IMG/VR virus record: IMGVR_UViG_3300028198_000003
Coordinates: 1-61,047 of that record
DNA length: 61,047 nt
Strand: one strand, 5' to 3'
Origin: a virus
This document shows, one piece after another, positions 8,760 through 61,047 of this stretch. Positions within the stretch are counted from its first letter, which is position 1; every line of letters starts with the position of its first letter. Below the pieces are notes generated by a model. The model did not search any database. It was not told the DNA's origin and was given only the letters and a program-made list of their open reading frames with translations. The translations under genes were made by a program, and so were the position numbers.

Positions 8760-9725
8760 ATGTGTGTAATAATATGTATAGAAGATGGTAAATACCCAAG
8801 TAAGTCCACGCTTGAAGACGCAGAAAGTATGAATTGTCATGGTGGTTCAATAGCATGGCTTGATAAGAATGGTAAAAAGTATTACCAAAAAGGTATCAAG
8901 GCTAAAGCAATCACTAAGATAATCAAGAAGCAACTCAAGCCCAAAGGTATTAAGACAGCAATCATTCACTTTAGGATTGCAAGTGTAGGAAATGTTAACA
9001 AGAAACTATGCCACCCGTTTGAGATATCTAATAGAGTTGATCTTAATCTAAGTGGCGAACGCATGACTACTGACTTACTATTCCACAACGGAACATGGTC
9101 AGAGTATGCAGAGGAAATGTTAGAGTTCTTAGGCAAACATAACAAGCCACTAAAAATACCATACGGTGAGTTTAGTGACAGTAGAGTGATGGCATACCTA
9201 GCTAAACGCATGGGTGTCAGAAAGATGGCTAAGAAAGTAACAGGTTGGAATAAGATAGCAGTACTCACGAGTGATGGTATCAAACGATACGGCACAGGTT
9301 GGGTTAACTTCAAAGGTAACAAGTGTAGTAATGATTACTTTGTACCAACATTAACCTCATGGAGTTATGGGGGCATGGGTGACTATAATTTTGGGGATAA
9401 GTCAGGTAGTAAAGAGTATGGTGGTGGCGAGTATCTCAATGATGAAGAAACTCTTGTAGCTGATACATTAAAAAACGTCTACGACGTTACTGATGAAGAA
9501 ATCAATGACTACTTAGCAGGTGGCATGAGTATATTTGATGTTGAAGCTATGTATGAAGCAGCAGAATTAACAGTAGCGTATGAAGATGATGGTCAGATAG
9601 GAATGGAAGAGGAACGATTGATACCTGTTGATACAGATAAACAACTGAGTTATCAAAAGAGATTAGATGAAGAGTGTGCATTGAGTGAAGCGATAGAACA
9701 TACAAGGAGAGGAGCAATATGGTAA
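8760..9725 (+). CDS. class II glutamine amidotransferase-like protein
   Basis: A 321-residue protein beginning MCVIICIEDG, placing a Cys at position 2 as the N-terminal nucleophile after Met removal. HFRIASVGN near residue 70 and LLFHNGTW near 110 match the Arg and Asn-Gly positions that bind glutamine in class II (Ntn) amidotransferases. The C-terminal third is acidic and unassigned. A strong ribosome-binding site (GGAGGTGATGG) sits just upstream. Next to the amidoligase it probably supplies ammonia from glutamine, or hydrolyses a related amide. Confidence 0.75.
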   Translation: MCVIICIEDGKYPSKSTLEDAESMNCHGGSIAWLDKNGKKYYQKGIKAKAITKIIKKQLKPKGIKTAIIHFRIASVGNVNKKLCHPFEISNRVDLNLSGERMTTDLLFHNGTWSEYAEEMLEFLGKHNKPLKIPYGEFSDSRVMAYLAKRMGVRKMAKKVTGWNKIAVLTSDGIKRYGTGWVNFKGNKCSNDYFVPTLTSWSYGGMGDYNFGDKSGSKEYGGGEYLNDEETLVADTLKNVYDVTDEEINDYLAGGMSIFDVEAMYEAAELTVAYEDDGQIGMEEERLIPVDTDKQLSYQKRLDEECALSEAIEHTRRGAIW

Positions 9726-10003
9726 CTAACATACAATCAATATACCCACAAAGTATGATAAGTAGAACACTATTAAAGGCACACAACAACCAACAAAATA
9801 GTATACTATGTCCGTACTTGGCTATTGCATTGGAAACAAACTTCATTAATGAGGATTACATTAGAATGTTCCCTAGTCAATTTGGTAGAATGTCAATGAG
9901 AAAAATCATAGACCACTTAGGTATGACTGAGTTTAATTCCAATAAGATTTGGCGTATGATTGAAGATGGTTATACTCTTGAACAAATATCGAGGAGTTTT
10001 TAA
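9719..10003 (+). CDS. 94-residue helical hypothetical protein
   Basis: Starts MVTNIQSIYPQSMISRTLLK after GGAGAGGAG and overlaps the upstream stop. The C-terminal half (MRKIIDHLGMTEFNSNKIW, then GYTLEQISRSF) resembles a helix-turn-helix. Possible small DNA-binding regulator; no family recognised. Confidence 0.55.
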   Translation: MVTNIQSIYPQSMISRTLLKAHNNQQNSILCPYLAIALETNFINEDYIRMFPSQFGRMSMRKIIDHLGMTEFNSNKIWRMIEDGYTLEQISRSF

Positions 10004-10279: not shown

Positions 10280-10740
10280 GTATGTAGATACATCATGCCT
10301 ATGTTTATGACAACGGTAGGGTATATTATTTGGGGAAACATATACCCTGCCTACTTTTACCATAGTTCATGACGTGAACCTCTCAGGAGTAAGAACATAA
10401 AGTCATGACCTACTTAACACCCAGAGTTGTACACGACTACTGGGGGGGAGTAGAGTATAGCCCATGTGTAAGTTGAGGAATGGGTTTTACATATTATAGT
10501 TAACTAAGGAGATCTGAAACATCTTGGGAGTGGAACAACGACAGTTGTGTAACAACACTACAAGCGATAACAGTTGCCTTGTTAAACAACGTATTAGGAT
10601 AGGATTAGGAAGATATACTTGAGGTGTCTTACCAACTAAGTTTGGAACCAATGATAGTAATGACCTGATCAACATGCATAGACGTTAGTTAGTACATGGG
10701 CTTCCCATAAGAATAGCATAACTGAGATTAACAACGGTGC
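10280..10740 (+). ncRNA. candidate structured RNA C
   Basis: A 493-nt stretch (10251-10743) without a credible gene, opened by a TATA-like AATATTATATTAAA near 10252. Strong stems: GGTAGGGTATAT (10315-10326) with ATATACCCTGCC (10340-10351), 12 pairs including one G-U; TCATGAC/GTCATGA at about 10368-10408; CCCAG-AGTTG-TACA-CGACT-A-CTGGG (10420-10444); and a long-range perfect 8-bp stem GCCCATGT (10460-10467) with ACATGGGC (10694-10701) enclosing about 225 nt. A minus-strand reading frame here is short, has no promoter and cuts across these stems. Evidence is structural only. Confidence 0.45.
10420..10444 (+). ncRNA. AGTTGTACACGACT hairpin, copy 1
   Basis: Stem CCCAG/CTGGG with a bulged A, inner stem AGTTG/CGACT and tetraloop TACA. 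The same 14-nt apical sequence sits on a different outer stem at 12078-12106. Confidence 0.6.
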
Positions 10741-10743
10741 AAC

Positions 10744-11127
10744 ATGATGAAACATGATAAAGAAACTGTCAAAGACAGGCATATATTTAGTCATCAAGAG
10801 TGTGGCTGTATAAATTGTTACAGGCATACTCGTGACATATTGATTGCTGAATTAGAAAGCCTTTGTATCATTGACGTACAAAAAGACCCCAATATAATGA
10901 GGTTGAGTGAGAAATTTGCTGACGCACTACCAAATAGTGAAAACGCTGACATTCCTCACATATCAAACGAAGATATTTGGGGAACACTGATAATGCGTTT
11001 CAATCAAACTGAACCTGACGCCATTCAAGACTATGGCATAATTATACGAATGGTGATAGATGTTTTGATTGAGACTCACAGAAACAATACTACAAACAAA
11101 CATGGAGGTGATATGTATGGAGTATAA
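10744..11127 (+). CDS. 127-residue hypothetical protein
   Basis: Begins MMKHDKETVKDRHIFSHQEC, with a Cys/His cluster (CGCINCYRH) near residues 20-28 that may bind zinc, followed by a helical body. It opens a tightly packed plus-strand operon running to CobS/CobT. No family recognised. Confidence 0.6.
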   Translation: MMKHDKETVKDRHIFSHQECGCINCYRHTRDILIAELESLCIIDVQKDPNIMRLSEKFADALPNSENADIPHISNEDIWGTLIMRFNQTEPDAIQDYGIIIRMVIDVLIETHRNNTTNKHGGDMYGV

Positions 11128-11248
11128 AACAAAAAAACCAACTTACAAACAAGCCAAGAAAGCATACGAAGTATATCAATCAGGTATGAGTAATGGTGGA
11201 GAATTTTGGGATACGTTAGCACAGTATTTCAAAGGAGAAGAAGCATGA
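11117..11248 (+). CDS. 43-residue hypothetical protein
   Basis: MEYKTKKPTYKQAKKAYEVY, then a short Gly/aromatic helix. Overlaps both neighbours, and a GGAG-type ribosome-binding site near its end serves the next gene. Function unknown. Confidence 0.5.
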   Translation: MEYKTKKPTYKQAKKAYEVYQSGMSNGGEFWDTLAQYFKGEEA

Positions 11249-11523
11249 ACCACGAACAATGGGTAAACGCTATCAAATCTAAGAAATCAGTCAGATTTAC
11301 TGAGGAGTTTTTGACTTCATTAACTCAGATTGGTATGGATAAAATAGAACCGTTCAAATATCTTGGAAGCAGTATGACAACAAGAGAAATGCATTTAGTA
11401 GAATGTAAGATGGTTGATTTCTTATCAAACAAACCAACACTAACTAACTCAGAACTATCAGTGTTACAATCATTGTTATGGGACGAGAAGAAGTTTGGTA
11501 TAATGAAAGAGGTGAAAGAATAA
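11245..11523 (+). CDS. 92-residue hypothetical protein
   Basis: MNHEQWVNAIKSKKSVRFTE followed by a helical domain without Cys. The ATG overlaps the preceding stop (ATGA) and follows AAAGGAGAAG. No family recognised. Confidence 0.6.
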   Translation: MNHEQWVNAIKSKKSVRFTEEFLTSLTQIGMDKIEPFKYLGSSMTTREMHLVECKMVDFLSNKPTLTNSELSVLQSLLWDEKKFGIMKEVKE

Positions 11524-11702
11524 TGCAAATACAAAGTTGCAATACAAACACACCTGAAAAGGTATACGAGACTACGTTAGAATCGTGTACCTGTGGTGAC
11601 TGGCGATACAAAAAGTCAGTAACAGGAGAGTTGTGTAAACACCAAAAGATGTTGTGTGATGAAGCCCCACCAACAGTATCAGAAAGAACATGGAGGGAAT
11701 AA
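11523..11702 (+). CDS. SWIM-type zinc finger protein
   Basis: A 59-residue protein in which CTCGDWRYKKSVTGELCKH fits the SWIM signature C-x-C-x(n)-C-x-H. SWIM fingers bind DNA or proteins and accompany recombination and transposition proteins, including Rad51-family partners. The start at 11523 overlaps the previous stop (TAATG) behind GAGGTGA. A link to the virus RadA is possible but not shown. Confidence 0.7.
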   Translation: MQIQSCNTNTPEKVYETTLESCTCGDWRYKKSVTGELCKHQKMLCDEAPPTVSERTWRE

Positions 11703-11905
11703 TGACTGAGAAATGTTATGTGGTTGTAAGAGATACTGAAATTCTTCAATGTCTTGAAGAATATTACACATTAGATAATAAAGACGAGGCTAATGGTTTC
11801 ATTCTTGGCTTGAAAGTTGCAAGTAAGTATTATAATGACAAACTGGTGAGAGTTGAGGTAAATGAACCAGTAGAACCAGTAGAAGAGGAGATAGACAGAA
11901 CATGA
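11702..11905 (+). CDS. 67-residue acidic hypothetical protein
   Basis: MTEKCYVVVRDTEILQCLEE, a small alpha/beta domain ending in a Val/Glu/Pro-rich tail. Start overlaps the preceding stop behind GGAGGG. Function unknown. Confidence 0.55.
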   Translation: MTEKCYVVVRDTEILQCLEEYYTLDNKDEANGFILGLKVASKYYNDKLVRVEVNEPVEPVEEEIDRT

Positions 11906-12075
11906 CTGAGACATTCAAGTGCACCAACTGTGAAGAGTTGTTTAACATTGATGATGAGAATTACAGCAACGAACTTGACAACTCATACTGTGACTCATGC
12001 TGTGATGCAATGGAAGAAGACGAGCATGCGGCAAAGGTTGACCACATGATGGGTGTGATGGAGGACAGGGATTAA
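11902..12075 (+). CDS. 57-residue zinc-ribbon protein
   Basis: CTNC at residues 7-10 and CDSCC at 30-34 form a four-Cys zinc ribbon with an acidic loop; a His/Met-rich helix follows. Coupled to the previous gene by ATGA. Function unknown. Confidence 0.6.
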   Translation: MTETFKCTNCEELFNIDDENYSNELDNSYCDSCCDAMEEDEHAAKVDHMMGVMEDRD

Positions 12076-12077
12076 CA

Positions 12078-12106
12078 TGTGCAGAGTTGTACACGACTGC
12101 TGCACA
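12078..12106 (+). ncRNA. AGTTGTACACGACT hairpin, copy 2
   Basis: TGTGCAG (12078-12084) pairs with CTGCACA (12100-12106), one bulged G, inner AGTTG/CGACT and loop TACA. Identical apical part to 10420-10444 but a different, still fully paired, outer stem. It lies in the 66-nt gap between genes of the CobS/CobT operon. Confidence 0.6.
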
Positions 12107-12141
12107 CATACCCACACTGACATACGTGTTAGGTGGAAAGT

Positions 12142-12390
12142 ATGACTGATATAACAAAACAAAAGACATGCCCTAACTGTGAAGACCAAGACTGTGAGAT
12201 AGATATGGACTTATGTGAAGGCTGTGAAAGATGTAAAACCTGTTTTGGTACAGGTATACAAGAGTATCAAATAGCAGTAGACGACTTTAAAGAAATGGGT
12301 TGTGAAGACTGTGGATATGATCCTAATGATAGTGACGATGCGTATGACGCATGGAAAGATGATCAACTTACGGAGAGTAAAGATGATTAG
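12142..12390 (+). CDS. 82-residue zinc protein
   Basis: MTDITKQKTCPNCEDQDCEI, then CEGCERCKTC and CEDCG: at least ten cysteines followed by an acidic tail. The ATG at 12142 is preferred over the GTG at 12133, which is part of an AGGTGG ribosome-binding site. Probably two zinc sites. The CxxC and CxxCxGTG spacing loosely recalls the DnaJ zinc centre. Function unknown. Confidence 0.6.
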   Translation: MTDITKQKTCPNCEDQDCEIDMDLCEGCERCKTCFGTGIQEYQIAVDDFKEMGCEDCGYDPNDSDDAYDAWKDDQLTESKDD

Positions 12391-12481
12391 ATACATGTTC
12401 ATGGACATACTTGACATGTCACCTCGTGGTAGATTCCAAGATGAAGATGATGAGGAAGATGAAGATGAGGAAGATGATTGA
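12383..12481 (+). CDS. 32-residue acidic peptide
   Basis: MIRYMFMDILDMSPRGRFQD ending in a run of Asp/Glu. It overlaps both neighbours. Weakly supported apart from its coupling. Confidence 0.35.
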   Translation: MIRYMFMDILDMSPRGRFQDEDDEEDEDEEDD

Positions 12482-12605
12482 TATGGATAAATGTGTAGAA
12501 TGTGGAAATGAAAAACCAATAGAAGAAATATTATGTTTACATTGTTGGTGTTTACAAAATAATTTTCCTTGTGAATGTAGGGAGGAAGATGAGGAAGATG
12601 AGTAA
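12474..12605 (+). CDS. 43-residue Cys-rich protein with acidic tail
   Basis: Contains CVECGNEKP, CLHCWCLQN and CEC, giving seven cysteines in a 32-residue span, then an acidic tail. Start at 12474 or 12483. Overlaps the next gene. A metal-binding microprotein of unknown role. Confidence 0.5.
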   Translation: MIDMDKCVECGNEKPIEEILCLHCWCLQNNFPCECREEDEEDE

Positions 12606-12807
12606 ACATATAGATATTTCTTTACCCAAATATAAATGGGGTAAATGTCATTGTCATGATTGTGATGAAGATGATATTATGTGGCAAAAGTCTAAAGTAT
12701 ACATTCCTTTACCTGATAACGTAAGACCAAAGAGTTCTTTAAAAATGGTTGATGAATTGAGTAGTAATAATCGTACCCACACCAATTATATTGGGTGGAG
12801 AGTATGA
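12598..12807 (+). CDS. 69-residue protein with CHCHDCDED metal motif
   Basis: MSKHIDISLPKYKWGKCHCH then DCDEDD: a compact C-x-C-H-x-C cluster next to acidic residues, followed by a conserved-looking basic/aromatic part. Its GTATGA end overlaps the CobS-like start. The ATG at 12598 follows a GAGG ribosome-binding site. Confidence 0.55.
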   Translation: MSKHIDISLPKYKWGKCHCHDCDEDDIMWQKSKVYIPLPDNVRPKSSLKMVDELSSNNRTHTNYIGWRV

Positions 12808-13748
12808 CAGATACTATGGAAAAACAATTTATCGAGTCCATAAAACCGACTCAAGTAGATCCATCAGCTAGGACATATAAAGTTCCTACTGCTGAGATAG
12901 ATTACACTAACTATCTTCCTACAAAATGGGGAGTGGAATACGTGCAACTATCTGACGAAGCAGATGAACTGGAAGCCTGTCTTTTAAAAGGCATGAACTA
13001 TCTGATTGAAGGAGACAAAGGTTTGGGTAAAACCCAATTAGTACATAACCTATGTTTCAAACATACATTACCAATCGTCCCCATTAATTGTTCTGAAGGA
13101 ACAAAGATAGGAGACTTGATAGGTAGACCTCAGATTAATGAGTTCGGAAGTTACTTCCAACTTGGTGTACTACCAACAGCTATCGAGGTAGCAAATAAAT
13201 CTGAGCATAAGATAGCAGTTTTATACATGGACGAGTTCAATGCAATGCGTCATGAGATACAGAAGGCAACCAACTCTGTGACTGATGATAGAAGATCAAT
13301 CGTTGCAAACGGTACGACATACCGACTCAATAAAGGTGTAAAACTTGCAGTGGTTGCAACAATTAACCCAAGTACCTACGCAGGTGTCAACACATTAACT
13401 GAAGACACTAAGAGTAGATTCATTGGGGCTACGTGGGACTATCCATCTAGTGAAGACATGGAAAGAATTATTAACTGGAGTGGCATACCTGTTGATACGG
13501 TTAAAGAACCAATGTTAACACTCGTACAAAACATTCATAACTTGAGGATCAACGCAGATGTTGAGTACTCATTGTCACCTAGAGATGTGGCACAGTTTAC
13601 TGACTGTTATAGAATGTGGACAGATTCACCACTCAAAAAACCACTTGAAAGAAGTTTGAATAACGCAGTACTTTCAAAGTTTGGTGACACAACACAAAGA
13701 ACATTGATTAAGAAACAGATCATTGAGATATTTGGAGTGACCGTATAA
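12804..13748 (+). CDS. cobS-like: CobS-like / MoxR-type AAA+ ATPase
   Basis: A 314-residue ATPase. Walker A is EGDKGLGKTQ near residue 70; Walker B is VLYMDEFNAM near 145; a sensor segment VATINPSTYAGV near 190 precedes an Arg finger in TKSRF. The order fits the MoxR/CobS group, which works with VWA-domain partners as metal-insertion or protein-remodelling chaperones. CobS with CobT drives cobalt chelation in cobalamin synthesis, but viral copies need not do so, and no CobN is present. The ATG at 12804 is used because the upstream GTG is within the GGTGG ribosome-binding site. The CobT-like partner starts at the next base after the stop. Confidence 0.8.
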   Translation: MTDTMEKQFIESIKPTQVDPSARTYKVPTAEIDYTNYLPTKWGVEYVQLSDEADELEACLLKGMNYLIEGDKGLGKTQLVHNLCFKHTLPIVPINCSEGTKIGDLIGRPQINEFGSYFQLGVLPTAIEVANKSEHKIAVLYMDEFNAMRHEIQKATNSVTDDRRSIVANGTTYRLNKGVKLAVVATINPSTYAGVNTLTEDTKSRFIGATWDYPSSEDMERIINWSGIPVDTVKEPMLTLVQNIHNLRINADVEYSLSPRDVAQFTDCYRMWTDSPLKKPLERSLNNAVLSKFGDTTQRTLIKKQIIEIFGVTV

Positions 13749-15551
13749 ATGGTTCTACCATCATCTACTGATGTCACTCTTAATGTCAATGACTTTTTAT
13801 CTGAGCAGGAATATGACAGAAAGAAAGCAGGGATTATATCTCGTGTAGTTAACACGCCTATTGAAGTTGACTATCAAAGAGATCTAAACTGTGCTTACGA
13901 ATTAAATGATAAAGTAACAGGAAAAAGATCAGGGTTCAAAGTTATCAAAGCAAAACCTAAACTAAAAGGTATTGATGGTAACACAGCAATGAATCATGAA
14001 TTGGCACACGTTCTGTTCGATTCATTTGATCCCAAAGCACTTCAAACATTAAAAGACTGGGCATTTCAATGGGGTGCAGAAAACTCAAACGAGTATAGAA
14101 GAGCCTTTAATATATATCATACAGCAATGAATGTGATTGAAGACCAACGCATTGAGTCATTGTGGGGCAAGATATACTTGGGTAACTTTAGAGACTTTCA
14201 AAGAGTGAGAAAGAAGTTAGGTAAAGAACTAACATTCATTGACCACCCATCTGCTGTACTATTGGCAGAGAGATTCTTTAGACCTGACTTGGTAACACCA
14301 AGCAAGTATGCACACGTGGCACCGTTCATACATGATGTTGAAGGTAAGGATCTTAAAGCCACTATGATTGTCATGAATCGTATAAAACAATACCTTGATG
14401 ATAAGATTAAAGACATGGAAAAAGATGCTGAAGAATACAAAGACCAATCTGACAAGTATAACAAATGCAGCAGTGATGTATCAGATTCTTCTGATGAAGA
14501 ACAGAGAGCAAGAAGAGTTAAGGAAAGAGACTTTGAATATGACAAAGTAAAAACGATGAACAAAGAGATATCTAAGGACAATAATCCTGTTCAAATAGAA
14601 AGACGGGCAACACCTAGATTATCAAAACATGCACAAAATGCAGAATCACTGTATGGACTTGAAGATCTTGGAGCAGGAAAATATGAAGAGGCATTGGAGG
14701 AGGAACAAGAAAATGCACAACAAAAACTACAAGCAATCAAACAGAGTATGGAAGGATCAGATATGGTTAAAGTCCCATCATATATTAGAGACAAACCAGT
14801 AGACAAAACAGGTGGATTTAAACCTGTTATTGACAACCATATTGTTGCACAATTTAAAAGATTGTTGCGATCCTTCAAAGAAAAGACGCATGAAGACGCA
14901 AGTGATGAGGGATATGACTTGGACATTGGCGAATACATTAACATGAAAGCCAATGGATATGGTGATTGCTTCATAGAGGACAAAGACACCAATGGTCTAT
15001 CAATAATGTTAAGTATTGATGGCTCAGGTAGTATGAGAGATCACAACCCAATGGTTGCAAACATGGTAGCAACTATGCAAGAAGCAACCAAAGACCAAAA
15101 AGATATAGAAATAAAGACTATGGTTTGGTCGTCAGATCGTACAGGTAATGTAGCGATACAAAGGTATGAATCAGAAGATATTAAATATCTACCCACTCAA
15201 CGAGGTGGATACACACCTACACACTTTGGTATTGAAGCAGGCTCAAGAGAACTTGCAAAGATGAATGGTAGAAGAAAACTATTGATAGTAATTACCGATG
15301 GATTTCCAAACTATCATAACAACGGTACCAAAGTTAGAACAGATGCAACAGTGAGTGCAACAATTAAAGCCTACAAGAAATCAATGAGAACAACACCAAA
15401 CATAGCAATAGTTGGAGTTGGATTCTTAAATGTTGAATACATGAGAAGAATGTTTGGAAACAAATATATATCCTGTAGGTCTATGAAAGAAGTAGGACAC
15501 TTTATGACCACAACACTTAGTAGAGAAATAGTCCGAGTTATGAAACGATAG
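13749..15551 (+). CDS. cobT-like: CobT-like VWA-domain protein with HELAH motif
   Basis: A 600-residue partner of the AAA+ ATPase. Near residue 80 is NHELAHVLF and further on NVIEDQRIES, the His-Glu-x-x-His and E-D-x-R-x-E motifs common in CobT-like proteins and related to metallopeptidase folds. A charged coiled-coil region follows (about 215-340). The C-terminal VWA domain has a complete MIDAS site: DGSGSM near 425, a Thr in GGYTPTH near 490, and Asp in VITDGFPN near 515. Together with the ATPase it should form a metal-dependent remodelling machine; the substrate is unknown. Adjacent stop and start imply co-translation. Confidence 0.8.
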   Translation: MVLPSSTDVTLNVNDFLSEQEYDRKKAGIISRVVNTPIEVDYQRDLNCAYELNDKVTGKRSGFKVIKAKPKLKGIDGNTAMNHELAHVLFDSFDPKALQTLKDWAFQWGAENSNEYRRAFNIYHTAMNVIEDQRIESLWGKIYLGNFRDFQRVRKKLGKELTFIDHPSAVLLAERFFRPDLVTPSKYAHVAPFIHDVEGKDLKATMIVMNRIKQYLDDKIKDMEKDAEEYKDQSDKYNKCSSDVSDSSDEEQRARRVKERDFEYDKVKTMNKEISKDNNPVQIERRATPRLSKHAQNAESLYGLEDLGAGKYEEALEEEQENAQQKLQAIKQSMEGSDMVKVPSYIRDKPVDKTGGFKPVIDNHIVAQFKRLLRSFKEKTHEDASDEGYDLDIGEYINMKANGYGDCFIEDKDTNGLSIMLSIDGSGSMRDHNPMVANMVATMQEATKDQKDIEIKTMVWSSDRTGNVAIQRYESEDIKYLPTQRGGYTPTHFGIEAGSRELAKMNGRRKLLIVITDGFPNYHNNGTKVRTDATVSATIKAYKKSMRTTPNIAIVGVGFLNVEYMRRMFGNKYISCRSMKEVGHFMTTTLSREIVRVMKR

Positions 15552-15565
15552 GAGGTGATAATGAC

Positions 15566-15889
15566 ATGGATAAAATAGAAATCAAAAAACAAGAAGATAG
15601 GTTACGAAAGAAATTAGTAACACAGTTAGGTAACATGCAGTACATGTGGATACCAAAACATAGAATGACTACTGAAGAAATACAAGGGTTAGATCAACTT
15701 GAACTGGAATCACAACATAGAAAACATTCAACTCTATGGGTTGAGTACAAAGTTAAACCAGTAGCACCAGTAGTATGTTTGTCTTGTGGGGTACAAACAG
15801 GTAAGTATGAGAATCACTTACTTAACGACCAAGACAAAATGGAATGGTATAATGATGAGTGCCAAGAATGTATGAGTGATAATTATTAG
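15566..15889 (+). CDS. 107-residue zinc protein
   Basis: A helical, charged N-terminal half leads to CLSCGVQTGKYENH and CQEC, a four-Cys zinc ribbon. It follows a perfect GGAGGTGAT ribosome-binding site. Last gene of the CobS/CobT operon; a terminator hairpin spans its stop codon. Function unknown. Confidence 0.6.
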   Translation: MDKIEIKKQEDRLRKKLVTQLGNMQYMWIPKHRMTTEEIQGLDQLELESQHRKHSTLWVEYKVKPVAPVVCLSCGVQTGKYENHLLNDQDKMEWYNDECQECMSDNY

Positions 15890-15905
15890 TCACTCATATT
15901 TTTTT
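15872..15905 (+). terminator. 8-bp hairpin plus T7 over stop codon
   Basis: ATGAGTGA (15872-15879) pairs perfectly with TCACTCAT (15890-15897), followed by A and seven T. The stop codon at 15887-15889 is in the loop. Confidence 0.8.
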
Positions 15906-15913
15906 ATATTTAA

Positions 15914-15950
15914 TTGCGTCTTGATTGTTGCTCAACAGTTTCGTAGTATC
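15914..15950 (-). repeat. contiguous copy of the 31-nt element (inverted relative to 6814-6910)
   Basis: The reverse complement of 15914-15944 equals the 14-nt and 17-nt halves found at 6814-6827 and 6894-6910 joined without a gap. Five of the next six bases also match. Confidence 0.8.
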
Positions 15951-16216
15951 AATTTGTAGGGGCTAATCAGTGTGTGAATTGACACAATCTTAGAAATCTA
16001 AATAAGATGAAAAGATACGGTGACTGATCATCACCAAGCTGGTGTATCTCCTTTATATGAGTTAGAACCTTCGGGTAAAGTACTCTTGTGCTGCTTAGAT
16101 AAAGGAGTTCCCAGTCTTTTAGCTACAGGGATTACATATCCCACATGAACGAGGCGTTTTCAGAATGGGCTTGAGGCTCATTGTAGAACAGGCACGCCTA
16201 CCTACATACAACAAAA

Positions 16217-16243
16217 AGTTGTACACGAAAATTTGTACACAAC
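16217..16243 (+). ncRNA. AGTTGTACACG hairpin, related third copy
   Basis: AGTTGTACA (16217-16225) faces TGTAC-AC-AACT (16233-16243) with a two-base bulge and an AT-rich loop. It repeats the first eleven bases of the apical motif at 10425 and 12085. Confidence 0.45.
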
Positions 16244-16244
16244 T

Positions 16245-16268
16245 CTATTTGGCAAAATAGGGTTTTTT
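16245..16268 (+). terminator. hairpin plus T6 terminator
   Basis: CTATTT (16245-16250), loop GGCA, AAATAG (16255-16260), then GG and six T. It would end a plus-strand RNA across 15906-16244. Confidence 0.6.
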
Positions 16269-16309
16269 CTAAGCGAAACGCTTATATTACATTTATGTAT
16301 ATAGCAAAT

Positions 16310-60881: not shown

Positions 60882-61047
60882 TATTTGTCCCTATTCTCCA
60901 TGTTTCTTAAACACTCCATTAGTATTCCAAGTGACCTGTTGTCTTTTTTAATATCTAACAAATCAACAATACGTCCTAAATATATATCCCATTCATCTAA
61001 TTTTTTAGGTTTTGCAACTTTAGGTTTTGTAACTTTAGGTTTTGTAA
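60881..61047 (-). CDS. KPKV-repeat protein, C-terminal part (cut by window edge)
   Basis: Enters from the window end in the frame TKPKVTKPKVAKPKKLDEWD, then a helical domain (YLGRIVDLLDIKKDNRSLGI) and a stop overlapping the next start. It joins in frame with positions 85-1. Whether the number of KPKV repeats is correct cannot be known from this assembly. Confidence 0.75.
   Translation of the reverse strand, partial: TKPKVTKPKVAKPKKLDEWDIYLGRIVDLLDIKKDNRSLGILMECLRNMENRDK
61009..61047. repeat. 15-bp repeats at right contig end
   Basis: Units gttttgcaactttag, gttttgtaactttag and a partial gttttgtaa, matching positions 1-30. Confidence 0.85.

Follow-up and report, generated by a model that had tools for sequence, protein, structure and literature searches.

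A short conserved sequence at both ends of the CobST operon of marthavirus-like viruses: a possible transcription-unit boundary element

The virus and its CobST block

The window, i.e. the whole stretch of DNA analysed here, is a 61,047-bp IMG/VR virus record that encodes TerL, a major head protein and a portal related to that of haloarchaeal tailed viruses, as well as MCM and RadA (Rad51/RadA). The module of interest contains a CobS-like AAA+ ATPase (12795..13748, + strand; PHROG 249, E 2e-19; Pfam AAA_5) followed directly by a CobT-like vWA protein (13749..15551, + strand; Pfam VWA, E 5e-7). CobST is present in several archaeal tailed viruses (PMC8651126), while RadA and CobS together in a tailed virus are described as typical of the marthaviruses of marine Thaumarchaeota (PMC7678222). 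The window has the set of genes by which such viruses are recognised, radA and ATPases alongside CobS within a single tailed-virus genome (PMC7678222). The virus thus appears to be a marthavirus-like tailed virus of marine Thaumarchaeota, its host being assigned by resemblance and not by a direct match.

Relatives were collected by scans with the CobS-like protein, a GATase-like protein (8760-9725) and DNA patterns. They comprise L025, L086/L099, L101/L102/L104/L105, L140 and L141, with L103 more distant, so that the independent relatives are few (~6 viruses). Three further candidates, L110, L114 and L136, were judged to be chance pattern matches, and one scan of genome contigs for copies in a host or provirus returned only an unrelated Lentisphaerae match.

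Two hairpins with an identical apex

Two hairpins on the + strand share the apex AGTTG-TACA-CGACT. Hairpin A (10420..10444) reads CCCAG-AGTTGTACACGACT-A-CTGGG with A10439 unpaired, and is extended in the predicted fold by an additional stem, CTACT/AGTAG (10410-10414/10449-10453). Hairpin B (12078..12106) reads TGTGCAG-AGTTGTACACGACT-G-CTGCACA with G12099 unpaired. The outer stems differ in sequence and in length (5 bp in A, 7 bp in B), and in both hairpins one unpaired base lies 3' of the apex. As bare hairpins they fold with z-scores of -3.5 and -3.4, respectively. The sequence-only reading of this locus had described exactly such a pair, with identical apex, a bulge at the same place and different outer stems, and the description is accurate. 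An identical 14-nt apex pair with outer stems of at least 5 bp on both copies occurs once in the window and in none of 200 dinucleotide shuffles (0/200). An identical 14-mer pair by itself is unsurprising in 61 kb. An exact 14-mer scan of viral contigs returned 83 stretches, about the level expected by chance, with L025 as the only true relative among them.

Hairpin B is located inside the operon, between two small genes, and has neither a T-run nor TATRG at +18-20. A second copy of the shared sequence is also found ~1.6-2.0 kb after site A in L102, and in L025, where it is cut by the contig end. The ~60 bases that hold hairpin B (12085-12144) are extra in the window; in L086 the neighbouring genes touch (GATTGACTGA).

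Conservation of the core sequence rather than the local hairpin

The conserved core of site A, TTGTACACGA (10427..10436, + strand), is part of AGTTGTACACGA, a 12-nt run that is invariant in a MAFFT alignment of site A from the window, L025, L086 and L102, the intergenic flanks of which have diverged. In this alignment AGTTGTACACGA is followed by GGGGG and then by AGTATRG. In the window, L025 and L086 the site follows one and the same C2H2-type small gene, and in L102 it occupies the corresponding place. At the equivalent place before the small-gene/CobST block, L141 carries GTTGTACACGA, with the same core as the window, and L140 carries CTGTACACGA. In the related viruses the core is always in sense orientation to the operon. 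The proposal that a functional element exists here is therefore supported by the invariance of AGTTGTACACGA at one position in four related viruses and the presence of GTTGTACACGA also in L141.

The earlier reading had further proposed that the outer stems are under selection for structure. In its favour, the core forms the apex of a hairpin at window A, window B and L025 A, and at these three sites the differing outer stems remain paired with a bulge of 1-2 nt. Folding revealed no significant local hairpin at L086 A (z -0.33), L102 A (0.09) or L102 B (0.90), and none like A or B at L140 A despite its core. L141 A has another, strong hairpin (z -3.43) whose loop contains the core and which is directly followed by C-TTTTTT. 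Folding of all 14 core copies in their contexts gave no structure common at the core, and a search of the window against Rfam returned 0 matches above the gathering threshold and two sub-threshold chance matches, neither of them at the hairpins. Given the folds lost at L086 A, L102 A and L102 B and the lack of a common structure, it is the core sequence that is conserved and not the local hairpin. The hairpin as the conserved feature is thus weakly supported, as among the relatives it is largely the primary sequence alone that persists, the outcome that the earlier reading had itself set as a refutation. By that rule, selection would act on an 11-12 nt sequence and on the constant spacing between it and a T-rich or TAT signal (see below), rather than on a stem-bulge-apex descriptor.

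Upstream of site A, the window folds into two further hairpins on the + strand, P1 (10268..10305) and P2 (10315..10351). L025, L086 and L102 have corresponding P1 hairpins with re-paired arms and, at the position of P2, a strong hairpin of other sequence. In pairwise alignments of P1 and P2, a few base pairs are altered on both sides.

A downstream signal at a fixed distance from the core

At site A of the window, TATAG (10456..10460, + strand) is found 19 nt after the core, and TATRG occurs at +18/+19 in L025, L086 and L102 as well. In L140 A and L141 A, TTTTTT takes up position +19. There is no T6 within 140 nt of window A or B.

Site C (16219..16242, + strand) consists of TTGTACACGA and TTGTACACAA in tandem, and AAAANNTGTACACAA is invariant at this place in five genomes. 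A relaxed third copy of the hairpin had been claimed at 16217-16243; the copy is real as sequence, but instead of the same hairpin the site holds two direct copies of TTGTACAC, at 16219-16228 and 16233-16242, and is part of another arrangement that is better conserved. Site C has TGTACACAA, followed after 19-20 nt by TTTTTT, and a T6 run is present at +19/+20 in all five genomes (the window, L086, L102, L141 and L140). In the window this run (16263..16268, + strand) begins 20 nt after the core and is preceded by a short CTATTT/AAATAG hairpin. The probability of a T-run at +18-20 in shuffled flanks is ~0.005, a figure to be read with the homology of the sites, owing to which they are not independent. 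Across 12 related records, the pattern TGTACACN{20,23}TTTTTT matches these sites only (the reversed control gave 0 matches), while GTACACN{20,24}TATRG matches the A sites and one unrelated site.

Further downstream, a TATA-like box (16280..16289, + strand) is situated ~25 nt upstream of the ATG (16310) of a GGACT-family gene (Pfam GGACT, E 2e-13), and is predicted to be a separate downstream promoter of that gene. The distance from core to TATA-like box varies between genomes (~48 to 65 nt), whereas that from core to T-run is fixed.

Sites A and C bracket the CobST operon

In all five genomes in which both ends are visible, A and C are found at opposite ends of the CobST operon as direct repeats, with core-to-core distances of ~5.8 kb in the window, 4.1 kb in L086, 5.5 kb in L102, 6.2 kb in L141 and 5.6 kb in L140. 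The full arrangement was not found elsewhere in those five genomes. L103 lacks the element and has no CobS match, although this CobS search was without a positive control among the records searched; its GGACT-family gene directly follows the small genes in the operon.

As a TATA-like box and a GGACT-family gene follow site C in the window, L086, L102 and L141, the site could in these four genomes either belong to a promoter or stop the CobST operon. The two roles can be told apart in L140, where no GGACT match was found and where site C is flanked by the + operon, which ends at 10415, and by a convergent gene (10632-10859, - strand). With only this convergent gene and no + gene downstream, a terminator would be expected at L140 C and a + promoter would not. 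The core is not present at the other operon ends of these genomes, hence it is not a general terminator of these viruses.

Structured RNA is also predicted near some C sites. In the window, the ~290 nt (15925-16215) that separate site C from the last gene of the CobST block are non-coding and fold strongly (z -2.78), with no Rfam match; such a fold is not seen before L086 C, where there is a small gene instead. Just upstream of site C in L140, positions 10460-10530 are predicted to form a branched RNA structure that has GCCTAG/CTAGGC as its closing stem and TTTTTT behind it, and that looks like a second terminator.

A possible boundary element of transcription units

Our tentative interpretation, which we favour while giving it somewhat less than even chances, is that the core together with T6 or TATRG is a transcription-unit boundary (termination) element of marthavirus-like viruses. 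We prefer it because L140 C lies in a convergent gap, because the distance to the T-run is fixed and that to the TATA-like box is variable, and because all copies are in sense orientation. The element would consist of the core (G/C)TGTACACRA and a run of T6-8 located 18-20 nt downstream, with TATRG instead at site A of the window lineage. Site A would close the transcription unit that precedes the CobST operon, and site C would close the CobST operon itself. The element would act in the nascent transcript: when the polymerase reaches the U-tract, the core would have just left the exit channel, and a factor of the host or the virus could bind the exposed core and so promote or modulate termination or the formation of 3' ends. 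Within this interpretation, recognition of the 9-nt core by a factor is probable. At some copies a hairpin may display the core in its loop, and at others it may be dispensable. The copies lacking a T-run, which are site B and the A sites of the window lineage, could be weak or regulated stops, or mere binding sites.

Further features appear to favour termination, namely the invariance of the core at syntenic positions in 4-6 viruses despite diverging flanks, the strong hairpin at L141 A with the core in its loop and T6 close behind, the lack of both the element and a CobS match in L103, and the structured RNA predicted before site A (P1 and P2) and before some C sites (15925-16215 in the window). 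Against it, four A sites have TATRG and no T-run, and the B sites have neither. The core is also near-palindromic as DNA (GTTGTACACAAC in L140), which would equally suit a DNA-binding dimer. What the comparison shows does not depend on this interpretation: where the sites lie, that their spacing and orientation are constant, that the core and not the stems has been conserved, and that the element is tied to the CobST module.

In the searched passages of PMC7515710 and PMC8716108, archaeal termination is described as relying on a U-tract and aCPSF1 (FttA), and a thaumarchaeal aCPSF1 is described as terminating at U-tracts in Methanococcus. The viral sites resemble the terminators in these passages in having T6-8 at the end of a transcription unit and no strict requirement for a hairpin. 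They differ by a conserved non-U core 19-20 nt upstream, by their occurrence at only two places per genome and by copies that are without a U-tract; no non-U core of this kind appears in those passages. A U-tract of ~4-8 T at the end of a unit is found at site C of the window, L086, L102, L141 and L140 and at site A of L140 and L141, and is missing at window A and B. Relative to termination as described in those passages, a conserved core set at a constant distance before the U-tract would be an extra component. Next to nothing is known of the signals that organise transcription in viruses of ammonia-oxidising archaea; the terminators of archaea have been described as plain U-tracts. If our interpretation is correct, the 9-nt core, set at a constant 19-20 nt from the U-tract and used at the CobST operon only, would suggest that this system has a sequence-specific factor for termination or read-through.

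Other known systems show partial likeness. A hairpin followed by T6, as in a bacterial-type intrinsic terminator, is found at L141 A and window C, where a stable hairpin directly precedes the T-run; there is none at L140 A and no hairpin common to the C sites of L086, L102, L141 and L140. Unlike in that class, other copies are without a hairpin and the loop/core sequence is conserved instead.

The phage nut and put sites are short sense-strand RNA boundary or antitermination signals near terminators that govern operon read-through. The viral element would likewise be a short sense-strand RNA element near terminators, but belongs to an archaeal virus and has no known partner protein, and we saw no relation in sequence. 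Integron attC sites and REP-type elements are repeated imperfect hairpins with an extrahelical base and a variable outer stem, as are hairpins A and B. Here, however, the core is GTTGTAC and not GTTRRRY, and the hairpin is not conserved; neither an IntI integrase nor a Y1 transposase was found among the window proteins searched.

Alternative explanations

The core could instead be a DNA operator, bound as double-stranded DNA by a dimeric regulator of the virus or its host, which would control the promoters downstream (of the CobST operon and the GGACT gene) and, at B, intra-operon expression. The near-palindrome, perfect at L140 C, would suit such a regulator, and the sequence rather than the structure is conserved. 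In most genomes TATA-like boxes follow A and C, at C ~25-27 nt before the start codon as in leaderless genes. This explanation has to contend with L140 C, which has a convergent gene and no + gene downstream, and with a distance to the TATA-like box that varies where that to the T-run is fixed. It also leaves unaccounted for the outer stems that differ and stay paired at A, B and L025 A, as well as the constant sense orientation, which a palindromic operator does not need. Of the three possibilities raised by the sequence-only reading, a protein-binding RNA element and an operator are both conceivable, the operator being on the unlikely side; an element for transcript 3' ends (termination) gives the best fit.

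A second explanation takes up an observation that the termination reading leaves unexplained. Three contigs from different viruses and samples end exactly between GTTGTA and CACGA, within the core (G001 at B; G004 and G005 at A). The ends at this point are those of L099 (contig start), L101 (contig end) and L025 (contig start). Sister contigs of G004 and G005, 99.95% and 100% identical to them over 12 kb, continue through this point. With 24 ends examined and ~13 core positions in ~330 kb, we estimate that far fewer than one such coincidence would be expected. The core might be cut or recombined here, with A, B and C as borders of a mobile CobST module or as a genome-end site. As a site of programmed DNA processing (cutting, recombination or end formation), GTTGTACACGA would mark the borders of a CobST module that thaumarchaeal viruses can exchange, and viral DNA molecules would really end there. 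If the contig ends are cut DNA, this would be a new genome-processing site. The hairpin-forming, near-palindromic core and its arrangement as a direct repeat around a module that has no CobS match in L103 agree with such a role. On the other hand, no contig was found that begins on the other side of the break, and no integrase, transposase or HUH nuclease was found among the window proteins searched. We regard DNA processing as rather improbable. The contig ends may also reflect alternative junctions, or come from assembly or read processing.

More specific accounts of the contig ends were considered and rejected. Taking the core chiefly for a physical genome end or cos site disagrees with the distant terminase genes (~17 kb away), the 2-3 copies per genome and the missing right-side partner contigs. 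After A-B or A-C recombination, the shared sequence would stop after GTTGTACAC or later, at least 3 bases beyond GTTGTA. A restriction site is contradicted by the commonness of GTAC/TGTACA and by contigs that pass through other copies. Finally, the core has ~8 nt in common with a standard Illumina adapter, an overlap too short for the usual trimming rules, and adapter trimming is thus an improbable cause.

A structural RNA hairpin, used for protein binding or processing and defined by stem, bulge and apex, would explain why the outer stems of window A, B and L025 A differ and yet fold, each with a bulge of 1-2 nt at the same place. It is very unlikely as the basis of the element and largely refuted as a general rule, given that L086 A, L102 A, L102 B and L140 A have the same core without the hairpin, that the C sites lie in other contexts and that no Rfam family corresponds. 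The scarcely credible alternative of a short conserved peptide, in which the core reads VVHD/VVHE in one frame and both window A (MTYLTPRVVHDYWGGVEYSPCVS) and window B (MCRVVHDCCTHTHTDIRVRWKV) are spanned by short ORFs, fails on the absence of a start codon at L086 A, the lack of conservation beyond the core and the intergenic C sites, and the conserved last residue is trivial because GAN always encodes D or E.

Other features of the record

No tRNA or tmRNA was found. Both ends of the record (1-50 and 60990-61047) lie in copies of one short repeat (GTTTTGCAACTTTAGG-like), which suggests a nearly complete record with its break inside a tandem repeat. A 94-aa protein (9719-10003; 7223-7504 in L103) is far closer between the window and L103 than is the neighbouring GATase-like protein (~56%), a likeness that suggests a recent exchange of this single gene.
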